Shown one piece after another: positions 5,898-46,723 of a stretch of DNA of 64,000 nt. Location of the stretch: contig NZ_CP061281.1 in the NCBI RefSeq assembly GCF_014621695.1, positions 682,001 to 746,000 on the forward strand, read 5' to 3'. The translations under genes were made by a program, and so were the position numbers. A model generated the notes under the pieces. It made no database searches, was not told where the DNA came from, and worked only from the letters and a program-made list of their open reading frames with translations. This stretch comes from Streptomyces xanthii. GTDB lineage: Bacteria; Actinomycetota; Actinomycetes; Streptomycetales; Streptomycetaceae. How positions within the stretch are numbered: position 1 is the first letter of the stretch; each line of letters opens with the position of its first letter.

Positions 5898-8122
5898 CGT
5901 CCACCGAACCGATGCCGACGCGGACCCCGGCGAACACGCCGCCGCCGCTCGACGCCGACACCCGCAAGCGCCTGCTGGCGGGGACCCATCACGACCCGCA
6001 CGCGGTGCTCGGGGCGCACCCCGCGCCGGGCGGGGTGACCGTCCGCGTCCTGCGCCCCTACGCGCGGGCGGTGTCGCTCCTCGTGGAGGGCCGGACCGTG
6101 GAGCTGGCGGACGAGGGGGACGGCCTGTTCTCCGTCCTTCTGCCGCTCGCCGAGGCTCCCGCGTACCGGCTGCGGATCACGTACGACGGCCGGGACTCGG
6201 AGACCGAGGACCCCTACCGGTTCCTTCCGGCGCTCGGTGAGCTCGATCTGCACCTGATCGCCGAGGGCCGGCACGAGGAGCTGTGGACGGCGCTCGGCGC
6301 GCACCCCATGACCCACCAGGGCGTCACCGGCACCCGCTTCACCGTGTGGGCGCCGAACGCCCTGGGCGTGCGCGTGTGCGGGGAGTTCTGCTGCTGGGAC
6401 GGCACCGCCCACCCCATGCGCTCCCTCGGTTCGTCCGGGGTCTGGGAGCTGTTCGTGCCCGGGATCGGCGAGGGCGCGCTCTACAAGTTCGACATCACCC
6501 GGCCGGACGGCACGCACACCGTGCGCGCGGACCCGATGGCCCGCCGGACGGAGGTGCCGCCCGCGACCGCCTCCGTGGTCACGCGCTCGGCGCACGTCTG
6601 GACGGACGACGCGTGGATGTCCCGGCGCGCCGAGCACCCCGCGCACCGGTCGCCGATGTCGGTGTACGAGGTCCATCTGCCGTCCTGGCGGCCCGGTCTG
6701 GGCTACCGCGAGCTGGCCGGGGAACTCACCGCGTACGTGACCGACATGGGGTTCACGCACGTGGAGTTCATGCCGGTCTCCGAGCATCCCTTCGGCGGGT
6801 CCTGGGGGTACCAGGTCACCGGCTTCTACGCGCCGACCTCGCGCCTCGGCACCCCGGACGACCTCCGGTACCTGATCGACACGCTGCACCGGGCGGGCAT
6901 CGGCGTGATCATGGACTGGGTCCCGGCCCACTTCCCGAAGGACGACTGGGCGCTGGCCGAGTTCGACGGCCGTCCGCTGTACGAGCCGGGGGACACACGG
7001 CGCGCCGAGCACCCCGACTGGGGCACCCTCACCTTCGATTACGGCCGCACGGAGGTCCGCAACTTCCTGGTGGCGAACGCGAGTTACTGGTTCGAGGAGT
7101 TCCACGTCGACGGCCTGCGCGTGGACGCGGTCGCCTCGATGCTCTACCTCGACTACTCGCGCGAGGAGGGCGGCTGGACGCCGAACGAGCACGGCGGCCG
7201 GGAGAACCTCGACGCGGTCGCGTTCCTCCAGGAGATGAACGCGACCGTCTACCGGCGCTACCCGGGCATCGTGACGCTCGCCGAGGAGTCGACCGCGTGG
7301 GAGGGCGTCACACGGGCCACGCACCACACCGGCTCGGACGGCTTCGGCGGGCTCGGCTTCGGGCTGAAGTGGAACATGGGCTGGATGCACGACTCGCTGG
7401 AGTACATCCGGCACGAGCCGGTGCACCGCCAGTACCACCACGGCGAGTTGACCTTCTCCATGGTCTACGCGTACAGCGAGAACTATCTGCTGCCGATCTC
7501 CCACGACGAGGTCGTCCACGGCAAGCAGTCCCTCGTCTCGAAGATGCCCGGCGACTGGTGGCAGCAACGCGCCAACCACCGCGCCTACCTCGCCTACATG
7601 TGGGCCCACCCGGGCAAGCAACTCCTGTTCATGGGCCAGGAGTTCGCCCAGGGCGCCGAGTGGTCGGAGGCGCACGGCCCCGACTGGTGGCTGCTCGACC
7701 CGGCGTACGGCGCGGAGCCGGACCACCGGGGCGTGCGCGACCTCGTCCGGGATCTGAACCTGCGCTACAGCGCGACGCCCGCCCTGTGGGAGCGGGACAC
7801 CGACCCGGGGGGATTCCGGTGGGTCGAGGCGGACGCGGCGCAGGACAACGTGCTGGCCTTCCTGCGCTTCGGGACCGACGGTGCGCCGCTGCTCGCGGTG
7901 AGCAACTTCTCCCCCGTGGTCCGGCACGGGTACCCGGTGGGGGTGCCCAGGGCGGCCGGTGCGTGGCGGGAGGTGCTCAACACGGACGCGGCCCGGTACG
8001 GCGGCGGTGACGTCGGCAATCCCGGGGCGCTCAGCGCGCTCCCCGGCCCGCTCGGCGCGTTCCCGGCCCGGCTGCTCCTGACCCTTCCGCCGCTGGCCAC
8101 GGTGTGGCTGCGCCCGGAGTGA
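5894..8122 (+). CDS. glgB: 1,4-alpha-glucan branching enzyme GlgB
   Basis: GlgB introduces alpha-1,6 branches into the glucan made by GlgE. The 742-residue protein has an N-terminal extension with two CBM48-like beta domains, then the GH13_9 barrel. Visible catalytic motifs are [15 protein letters not shown] with Asp411, [11 protein letters not shown] with Glu464, and [12 protein letters not shown] with Asp538. The GTG at 5894 is preferred over upstream in-frame starts because GGAGGAG (5878-5884) precedes it and it overlaps the mak stop codon (GTGA), as is usual in this operon. It completes the glgE-treS-mak-glgB set. Confidence 0.96.
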
Positions 8123-45186: not shown

Positions 45187-45306
45187 CTGACGGTCTGTCA
45201 GCCGTGGTGAGTGGGCCCATTGAGGCACGCCCCTCTTGAGACGACAAGGCACGGTCACGCTTCTTTTGGCATGCACCGTTCAATTCGCGCCGTGGTCGAA
45301 CCACGG
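45187..45306. promoter_or_regulatory. Two palindromes upstream of the secreted-protein gene
   Basis: CTGAC-GGTCT-GTCAG (45187-45201) and CCGTGGT-CGA-ACCACGG (45290-45306) are perfect inverted repeats with arms of five and seven bases. They lie in the intergenic region between the leftward secreted-protein gene and the tRNA-like RNA. They may be operators or RNA hairpins; nothing identifies a binder. Confidence 0.4.
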
Positions 45307-45427
45307 GCAGGGAGTCCCGGACACCCTCGCCGCGGCAGGACTTCGTCATCGGCCGACAAATCGATCGCCCCGCACAGGTCCGATCTCTATCCTGCGGTGA
45401 GCGGAATCGCGCGGTTCCGCAGGTCGG

Positions 45428-45546
45428 GGCGCCGTGGCAGAGCGGCCCATTGCGATCGGCGTGAGCGGTGCCTCGCTCACGCCGACTGGAGGAGAGGGGC
45501 GGGCACGCCCGTCTCCATCCCGCGGGTTCGAATCCCGTCGGCGTCC
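45428..45546 (+). ncRNA. tRNA-like RNA with long variable arm and no normal anticodon loop
   Basis: The element folds as a class II tRNA. A seven-pair acceptor stem joins 45428-45434 with 45539-45545; a three-pair D stem (45437-45439 with 45451-45453) encloses a loop with GG at 45444-45445; a five-pair T stem (45522-45526 with 45534-45538) carries the loop TTCGAAT; and a long variable arm runs from 45491 to 45516. In place of a five-pair, seven-base anticodon arm there is an 11-pair helix (45457-45467 with 45474-45484) closed by the six-base loop GTGCCT. The acceptor helix continues outward to 13 pairs (45422 with 45551), so the discriminator position is paired. No CCA is encoded. Confidence 0.6.
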
Positions 45547-45558
45547 CGACCGCCCCGG

Positions 45559-45577
45559 CGGCTCCCTGTGTGAGCCG
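45559..45577 (+). terminator. Small hairpin 3' of the tRNA-like RNA
   Basis: CGGCTC (45559-45564) and GAGCCG (45572-45577) form a six-pair stem with a seven-base loop, 14 bases after the tRNA-like domain. A matching small hairpin (GCGGAA with TTCCGC, 45401-45420) precedes the RNA. It may mark the 3' end, or be part of the leader of the downstream hydrolase mRNA. Confidence 0.35.
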
Positions 45578-45634
45578 ACGCGGCGGCGGGTAGGCGCGGG
45601 CACGTCAAGTGTCCCTCCGGCCCCAGGAGTTCCC

Positions 45635-46723
45635 GTGCCGCTGCCCGCGCTCAACCGCACCACGACCACCGTCGGCGTCGCCGCCCTCGCCCTCCTCGGC
45701 GGGATCGTCATCGGCGGCACCGGCGCGGTGAGCGCGAGCCCCCCGGCCGAGCCGAAGGTGCAGAACACGTTCGACTCCCTCGGCGCCGACGTGCGCGCCG
45801 CGAAGCTCCCCTCGGGCCGCACCGCCCACTACACCGACTCGGGCCCGGCCGACGGCACTCCGGTGCTCTACATCGGCGGCACCGGGACCAGCGCCCGGGC
45901 CGTCCACATGACCGACTTCCTGCGCACGACCCGGCAGAACCTGGGCCTGCGCATGATCACGGTCGAACGGAACGGCTTCGGCGACACCGCCTACGATCCG
46001 GAACTGGGCCGCGCCGACTACGCCGAGGACGTGCTCCAGGTCCTCGACCGGCTCGGCGTAAGGGAGTTCAAGGTGATCGCGATATCCGGCGGCGGCCCGT
46101 ACGCCGCCGAGATCGCCTCCCGCGCCCCCGAGCGGATCAGCGCCCTGCACCTGGCGGCCGCGCTCCCGCCCTTCGGCGCGAAGCCGGCGTACTGCGCCCT
46201 GTCCGACGAGCAGCTCTCCGCCGCCGTGAAGGACCAGATCAGGGACCCGCGGGTGTGGTGGGCCTTCCCCGCCGACAGCCCGGTCCGGTCGATCCCCGGC
46301 TTCGCCGACACGGCGTACGAGGAGGGGGCGCGGACCTACAACCAGCGCGGCCAGCAGGCGGATCCGGCGCCGCAGGTGCACGAGCAGCGGCTGTACTGCG
46401 AGCGCCCCGGCCCGGACGCGTCGAAGCTGACGGCGCCCGTGTTCCTGTACCACGGCGACAAGGACACCACCGTGCCCGCGAGCACCCTGGCCACGTGGCG
46501 CGAGCAGTTCGCCCCCGGCCAGGTGCGGACCCGCACGTACGCGGACTCCGGGCACGACGTCCAGTACCGCCACTGGGACCAGATCCTCGTCGACCTGGCG
46601 GGCCGGGCGGACCGGACGGTGGTCTGCCGGGACGAGCACACGCGGGCGCTGCCGGCCCGGGAGGCGGACGCGCTGGTCGGCAAGGGGAAGGCGACGCTGG
46701 GCAGTTGCGCCTGGAACGGCTGA
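45635..46723 (+). CDS. Exported alpha/beta hydrolase
   Basis: The 362-residue protein starts at GTG 45635 after AGGAG. A signal anchor or signal peptide (TTVGVAALALLGGIVIGGTGAVSAS) precedes an alpha/beta-hydrolase domain. VLYIGGTGTSARA is the oxyanion strand, VIAISGGGPYAAEIA the nucleophile elbow with Ser (Ala replaces the first Gly of GxSxG), LYHGDKDTTVPAS the Asp, and YADSGHDVQYRHW the His. The substrate is unknown. Its transcript ends at a very strong hairpin (46729-46764). The start lies 90 bases beyond the tRNA-like RNA. Confidence 0.85.
   Translation: MPLPALNRTTTTVGVAALALLGGIVIGGTGAVSASPPAEPKVQNTFDSLGADVRAAKLPSGRTAHYTDSGPADGTPVLYIGGTGTSARAVHMTDFLRTTRQNLGLRMITVERNGFGDTAYDPELGRADYAEDVLQVLDRLGVREFKVIAISGGGPYAAEIASRAPERISALHLAAALPPFGAKPAYCALSDEQLSAAVKDQIRDPRVWWAFPADSPVRSIPGFADTAYEEGARTYNQRGQQADPAPQVHEQRLYCERPGPDASKLTAPVFLYHGDKDTTVPASTLATWREQFAPGQVRTRTYADSGHDVQYRHWDQILVDLAGRADRTVVCRDEHTRALPAREADALVGKGKATLGSCAWNG

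Follow-up and report, generated by a model that had tools for sequence, protein, structure and literature searches.

We report a predicted RNA gene in Streptomyces xanthii which, as comparison across its family shows, is predicted to have the body of a class II tRNA with a 12-bp hairpin in place of the anticodon arm and an acceptor helix closed over 13 bp. The element lies within a stretch of 64,000 nucleotides (contig NZ_CP061281.1, positions 682,001 to 746,000), hereafter referred to as the window, and all coordinates given below without a locus name are positions in this stretch. Our data make it fairly probable that the element is a stand-alone, non-decoding tRNA mimic that acts in trans through its shape. 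Non-coding RNAs that mimic tRNA are known; new in the present case are the replacement of the anticodon arm, its joining to the variable arm by loop-loop pairing and the existence of a mobile branch.

The initial annotation of this DNA described a tRNA-like RNA in which a hairpin replaces the anticodon arm, and this observation was confirmed. Specifically, the class II elbow (GG in the D loop, the TTCGAAT T loop, a long variable arm and an acceptor stem) was located in the window (Table 1), the anticodon arm is replaced by an uninterrupted hairpin with a six-base loop, which has 11 bp, or 12 if the outer T-A pair is counted, and the 13-pair acceptor helix that includes a paired discriminator is present. 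The folding energy corresponds to z = -5.31 for positions 45400-45580 and z = -5.63 for positions 45421-45556, and 0 of 200 shuffled sequences folded as well. Small hairpins had also been annotated on both sides; the one on the 5' side is conserved in most of the family, and the one on the 3' side is not (z = 0.6 in the window, and z < -2 in 6 of 81 copies vs 5 of 81 control stretches).

Table 1. Positions of the predicted RNA element, its parts and the neighbouring gene in the window. Percentages are the share of alignment cells that are paired.
Feature	Position	Strand	Remarks
-10-like box, TATCCT	45388..45393	+	Predicted; expected start ≈45400 (5' hairpin base)
Whole element	45401-45551	+	Structured RNA, from family-wide comparison
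5' hairpin, self-complementary loop CGCGCG at 45408-45413	45401..45420	+	94.3% paired; two-sided changes in 3 of 6 pairs
Acceptor helix, 13 bp, 5' strand	45422..45434	+	Usual 7 pairs plus 6 extra outer pairs
U8 and D arm (3-bp stem, A14, G15, G18, G19, A21)	45435..45453	+	U8 45435; stem 45437-45439/45451-45453; G18 and G19 45444-45445
Anticodon-replacing hairpin, 12 bp, loop GUGCCU at 45468-45473	45456..45485	+
Kissing loop, strand 1, GUGCCU	45468..45473	+	Partner is 45501-45506
Long variable arm	45488..45520	+	Two helices, 92.5% and 95.1% paired
Kissing loop, strand 2, GGGCAC	45501..45506	+	95.8% paired
T arm, loop TTCGAAT	45522..45538	+	100% paired; no pair with two-sided changes
Acceptor helix, 3' strand	45539..45551	+	No CCA; discriminator position paired
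Alpha/beta hydrolase gene (neighbour, outside the element)	45635..46723	+	Pfam Abhydrolase_1, E 4.5e-15

The secondary structure was evaluated in an alignment (A2) of 29 of the 30 copies first seen; copy L025 is not part of it, as its T arm did not match the search pattern. In these 29 sequences the 51 pairs of the structure are formed in 96.3% of the cells, while versions of the structure slid along the alignment reach 38-54% (maximum 54.2%). Changes on both sides of a pair were found in 19 pairs vs 8.8 in shuffled alignments, none of which (0 of 500) gave as high a number. The 5' hairpin, the acceptor helix including its six extra pairs, the D stem, the anticodon-replacing hairpin and both parts of the variable arm have such changes; in the T stem the variation is one-sided only, and the two-sided changes are thus present in six of the seven helices. 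For the acceptor helix 98.1% of the cells are paired with two-sided changes in 4 of 13 pairs, and for the anticodon-replacing hairpin the corresponding values are 96.6% and 6 of 11. The search for compensatory changes across Streptomyces relatives that the initial annotation called for hence gave covariation in support of the acceptor helix, the anticodon-replacing hairpin, the variable arm and the 5' hairpin. The discriminator pair forms in 28 of the 29 rows, as C-G in 26 and as G-C in one, the window, which shows that it is the pairing and not the identity of the bases that is kept. The D-stem pair A12-U23 is C-G in two of the 29 rows and unpaired in three. RNAalifold proposed a GGC/GCC alternative to the D stem, which was rejected because A12-U23 becomes C12-G23 in two rows. 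Moreover, in the alignment of 85 rows there are 162 G-U cells vs 11 A-C cells, and this excess indicates that the RNA is the plus strand and that the constraint acts on RNA.

The six-base loop of the anticodon-replacing hairpin and the variable-arm loop are complementary (GUGCCU and GGGCAC, respectively, in the window), and this complementarity is maintained with other sequences elsewhere in the family: GGGUCC/GGACCC in L119, AGACUC/GGGUCU in L113, AGGUUC/GAACCU in L126 and AGGUCC/GGACCU in others. The pairing was scored in the 85-row model alignment (84 distinct rows), where the model itself does not contain these pairs and the columns were chosen by eye after looking at the same sequences. 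In this alignment 95.8% of the cells pair, compared to at most 67.4% for slid versions of the pairing. Two-sided changes are seen in five of the six pairs, in 32 cells; the shuffles gave 7.4, and none of the 500 reached 32. All six pairs are formed in 67 of the 85 rows, the other 18 including gaps and misaligned rows; the most variable column is unpaired in 12 of 84 rows, and some rows, e.g. L091, have one mismatch. By comparison, then, the hairpin loop is shown to covary as the partner of the variable-arm loop, which corresponds to a predicted internal kissing loop. A contact between these two loops is not known to us from any tRNA or tRNA mimic, and we found no example in the open-licence literature. 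While the initial annotation identified the hairpin, it noticed neither this kissing loop nor the -10-like box, the family and the mobile lineage that are described below.

The positions that build the tRNA core, i.e. U8, A14, G15, G18, G19, A21, base 48, U54, U55, C56, purine 57 and A58, are kept in 82-85 of the 85 rows, the T-loop positions in 84-85, and position 57 is always a purine. With respect to canonical tRNA, the elbow and core tertiary positions are accordingly present at the sequence level (as positions only), a 12-bp hairpin with a six-base loop is found where there would be a seven-base anticodon loop on a five-bp stem, and in place of an unpaired discriminator followed by CCA the discriminator is paired, with no CCA there in the window. 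In the sampled genomes the nearest sequence relatives of the element are tRNASer genes: when 36 loci with weak hits of the family models (28 from the class and phylum samples and eight from the family sample) were analysed with ARAGORN, tRNASer was found at 35, and these score 38-67 bits with the family models. The remaining locus, L087 1501-1659 (genome G570), is a weak match of 39.9 bits, is not a tRNA according to ARAGORN and may be a more distant family member. The element and tRNASer have the D arm, the long variable arm and the T arm in common; the element differs in that it lacks the seven-base anticodon loop, the free discriminator and CCA, and in that it has the 13-bp acceptor helix and the kissing loop. 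Ordinary tRNASer genes with UGA, CGA and GCU anticodons are present in the source genome, and the window copy is therefore not needed for those codons.

Seryl-tRNA synthetase is not known to read the anticodon. The kinship with tRNASer (35 of the 36 checked weak hits) would thus be consistent with an RNA that is charged by this enzyme and used outside translation as a serine donor. However, the discriminator is base-paired, and is swapped as a pair in the window, CCA is absent, and the variable arm appears to be held by the kissing loop. Since the end is closed in a helix, charging with serine is unlikely, and we consider a serine donor very improbable.

Standard annotation tools do not recover the element. 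ARAGORN predicted no tRNA in the window and no tmRNA either, a class that is within its reporting, and neither the window nor six other loci gave an Rfam match at gathering scores. The check with Infernal and Rfam suggested by the initial annotation, done with cmscan on positions 45300-45700 and E up to 10, resulted in five weak matches, with no tRNA family and no Y RNA among them. These matches were rejected as chance (Scr4115 on the minus strand with 20.5 bits vs a gathering score of 58, and four others). Among 59 relatives analysed with ARAGORN two were called at the element, L107 7058-7150 as tRNA-Asn (ATT) and L142 7054-7150 as tRNA-Val (GAC); public annotations may contain false tRNAs of this type. 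In four plasmid records with the element no feature is listed beneath it, the gene table being one without RNA genes. We found no description of the RNA in the open-licence literature, which does not in itself show that it is absent from print.

A conserved TANNNT box precedes the D arm by 44-50 bases and thus directly adjoins the 5' hairpin on its upstream side. When the interval x-60..x-38 relative to the D arm was searched, 75 of 79 copies had the box vs 0.8% of 2167 control stretches (excluding L150, which is at the same place as L102, L143-L145, which are without the conserved 5' hairpin, and L146 and L127, in which the 5' part is absent or unrelated), and its conservation places the predicted transcription start at the base of the 5' hairpin. 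The 5' hairpin stretch contains GCGC or CGCG in 74 of 84 copies vs 32% of 2225 control stretches. In L108 and L138 the place of these motifs is taken by CACGTG, which is also self-complementary, and all three motifs are absent from this stretch in L186, L117, L118 and L142-L146. A script that scored the predicted loop found the self-complementary GCGC/CGCG stretch in 53 of 84 copies, another hairpin often being picked in the rest. These data suggest that the self-complementary 5' loop may serve in dimerisation of the RNA or, at the DNA level, as an operator. One branch (L143, L144 and L145, around position 7000) has the tRNA-like body without the conserved 5' hairpin; the 5' hairpin is therefore dispensable, and its lack of conservation in L144/L145 points to the tRNA-like body as the core. 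On the 3' side we looked for a downstream terminator as a family feature and found none that is conserved and would define the 3' end.

Comparison of orthologous places suggests purifying selection on the element, above that on the adjoining stretches. When a syntenic group of seven genomes was compared in 40-base bins, identity was 77-89% in the element and 31% and 39% in the adjoining bins; farther out the identity is 38-66% upstream, and 87-96% in most bins of the downstream gene at 160-480 bases. For L144/L145 the element is 93-97% identical vs 25% and 50% in the adjoining bins. Two other small groups are less informative: the upstream gene equals the element in conservation in L108/L113/L138, and L110/L137 have 70-97% identity in the bins downstream. 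Since one flank is conserved in several groups, only the bins adjoining the element argue for selection.

These findings bear on the possibility of a tRNA pseudogene without function. Resemblance to tRNA combined with the loss of the anticodon loop is what such a pseudogene would display, but in the element six of seven helices, and also the kissing loop, have two-sided changes and the -10-like box is conserved, which argues against a pseudogene to the extent that we give it practically no weight. The initial annotation had offered a retired tRNA as one of its readings: in the sense of a functionless relic this is contradicted by the compensatory changes, while in the sense of a former tRNA that no longer decodes and is maintained for its shape it comes close to the evidence. 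Another of its readings, a non-coding tRNA mimic, is supported by the covariation, the conserved elbow, the promoter-like box and the conservation above the adjoining stretches. A pseudo-tRNA of Bacillus cereus, tRNAOther, is outlined in PMC3399842 as not functional in translation and proposed to reside inside a regulatory RNA. It is alike in being a tRNA-like element without a function in translation; that account concerns one strain, whereas we describe a family with a remodelled anticodon arm.

The position of the window copy raised the question of whether the element is a cis-acting, riboswitch-like 5' element of the downstream gene, like the tRNA-like yjdF riboswitch. With the hydrolase start taken as GTG 45635, the gene begins 83 bases past the helix and 234 bases past the start of the 5' hairpin, on the same strand, and the downstream gene is on the same strand also in 14 of the 22 repeat-bearing copies (opposite in eight; see below for the repeats). 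An mRNA 5' element, as put forward in the initial annotation, nevertheless fails as a general role: among the 61 copies without repeats and with a called downstream gene, this gene is on the same strand in only 26, the hydrolase of the window included, and on the opposite strand in 35. These counts were made with a rough frame finder, not a gene caller, and frames running through the element were trimmed. Outside the syntenic groups no neighbouring gene family recurs at one place, so that there is no downstream gene that is both on the same strand and conserved in kind. As the downstream genes point either way, a 5' leader is not supported, and we regard a cis-acting role as improbable. The yjdF riboswitch is, according to the description in PMC9142559, a cis element related to tRNALys, with a D-loop/T-loop elbow and no decoding role; the present element is likewise a non-decoding tRNA homologue with an elbow, but it is serine-like and not consistently in cis.

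In a divergent branch (L121, L123-L126, L128 and L129, around position 7000) the element occupies one conserved place, flanked by two genes that, judged from sequence, are secreted peptidase-like (upstream) and glucosidase-like (downstream).

The family was found in a minority of Streptomyces genomes. When 392 genomes were searched at the DNA level, 71 had a match at E 0.001, with many short matches and some long ones. A covariance model constructed from 29 copies matches 53 of the 392 genomes at E <= 0.001 and 46 (12%) at 70 bits or more, four of these with two such copies. The seven remaining genus matches have 38-54 bits, a score range like that of tRNASer genes. The family sample gave matches in 29 of 249 genomes, representing 6 of 17 sampled genera; 21 genomes have at least 66 bits and the eight weak ones correspond to seven tRNASer genes and L087. 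An exact pattern of 25 bases was present in 35 stretches of the GTDB contigs, all from Streptomyces, Kitasatospora, Embleya and Actinacidiphila; Streptomyces sp. SirexAA-E and S. noursei are among the carriers. For a broader model applied to the class (345 genomes) and the phylum (149 genomes), scores outside Streptomycetaceae are at most 67 bits among the matches listed. All 28 extra-family loci that were checked in the class and phylum samples have an ordinary tRNASer at the hit, and among the sampled genomes the element is therefore found only in Streptomycetaceae. No association with phages was found in a phage collection or with one exact pattern in viral contigs.

Part of the family is bounded by inverted repeats of the ISL3 type, which were found on both sides in 14 of 85 scored copies, on one side in eight and on neither in 63, compared to 0 of 85 for control stretches 600 bases farther out. 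This count left out L116, L162 and L180 (contig or stretch ends), skipped 11 duplicate stretches and has L150 among the 63 copies without repeats, which correspond to 62 distinct places. A unit with repeats on both sides measures ≈315 bp, and in 6 of 14 cases such a unit is flanked by perfect 8-bp target duplications. Eight ISL3-type units (L092, L093, L098, L101, L133, L148, L179 and L185) are 313-317 bp long, extend ≈130 bases to the left and 187 bases to the right of the D-arm start and have perfect duplications in six cases. In L219 a near-identical repeat is located beside a gene with ISL3 transposase domains. In a FastTree tree (midpoint root, without support values), from which L061, L116, L127 and L146 were excluded and which lacks L185 and L186, as these are not in alignment A3, the repeat-bearing copies (13 of the 14 with both repeats and seven of the eight with one) fall in one nested part, mixed with copies without repeats. 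The window copy has no inverted repeats and branches outside this part, and the RNA therefore seems older than its mobile form. One lineage was secondarily taken up between ISL3-type ends and then spread by transposition. With ISL3-type MITEs this lineage shares such ends and the 8-bp target duplications; the repeat-bearing units differ from them by carrying a structured RNA gene, and the window copy is not such a unit. Units of ≈143 bp with ISL3-type repeats at both ends were also seen (L222 1501-1643, and L223 1501-1643 and 2388-2530); they are too short for the tRNA-like RNA, and genomes G054 and G030 have more than one such unit.

A selfish RNA, which would secure only its own spread in small transposable units and do nothing for the host, would account for the repeats and target duplications, the adjoining transposase domains in L219 and the patchy presence in the genus. 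The same applies to the location of the copies, since on contigs > 7 Mb 13 of 19 copies lie within 1 Mb of the contig end, where 4.5 would be expected, although contig ends may differ from chromosome ends. Against this, the repeat-bearing copies form a single nested part of a tree without support values, 63 of the 85 copies, including that of the window, have no repeats, and copies at syntenic places keep their structure above the adjoining bins. We therefore regard a purely selfish RNA as unlikely, while giving it appreciable weight.

An RNA in which the anticodon has been swapped for a hairpin probably imitates tRNA rather than reads the genetic code. As a tRNA mimic acting in trans, the RNA would be transcribed from the -10-like box, its hairpin and variable arm would be clamped together through the kissing loop, and it would neither decode nor carry an amino acid. 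It could then, possibly as a dimer formed through the 5' hairpin, present a rigid tRNA shape and so be a bait or an adaptor for an elbow-recognising protein, with a tRNA-modifying enzyme, RNase P, seryl-tRNA synthetase, PNPase and a tRNA-cutting toxin as candidate partners. The loops of the tRNA body appear to be used internally, in the elbow and in the kissing contact, which makes an ordinary antisense RNA unlikely and favours protein binding; the main free loop left is that of the 5' hairpin.

The closest precedent for this way of working would be YrlA, whose tRNA-like domain, as outlined in PMC8394870, is placed on PNPase and whose closing stem is placed on the Ro60-like protein Rsr. The two RNAs follow the same plan, in that both are non-decoding, have D, T and acceptor arms resembling those of tRNA and are closed by a large stem that joins the 5' and 3' ends (PMC8394870), and the element might accordingly be a divergent bacterial Y RNA that tethers Ro60 to PNPase via its tRNA-like domain. 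It differs from YrlA in its class II variable arm and loop-loop pairing, and it gave no Rfam match at gathering scores in any of the loci searched. Nor is it associated with a Ro60-like protein: TROVE matches were found in 80 of 150 Streptomyces genomes, in 8 of 18 carriers vs 72 of 132 other genomes (Fisher P 0.46), and that in the source genome is 5.35 Mb from the element. The matches cover ≈63 of 442 profile positions in frames of ≈480-1090 residues and may not represent true Ro60, which leaves the lack of association unaffected. A Y RNA is therefore improbable, marginally less so than a cis-acting element.

Taking the non-decoding mimic as the preferred reading, we see about an even chance that the family constitutes an undescribed class of RNA: derived from tRNASer, without anticodon, not aminoacylated, clamped by a kissing loop, probably dimerising, and controlling or diverting a machine that binds the tRNA elbow, with a secondary existence as transposon cargo. 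To our knowledge, few bacterial RNAs imitate tRNA without decoding, and each of these has revealed a new job for the tRNA shape. With 84 distinct variants, covariation, a predicted start and both carrier and non-carrier species available, the structure, the partner and the phenotype are directly testable. If true, the class would be a bacterial parallel to SINEs, with a tRNA-derived RNA as the cargo of a DNA transposon. The family also illustrates how a tRNA body that has lost the anticodon can acquire a new tertiary contact and be taken up as transposon cargo.
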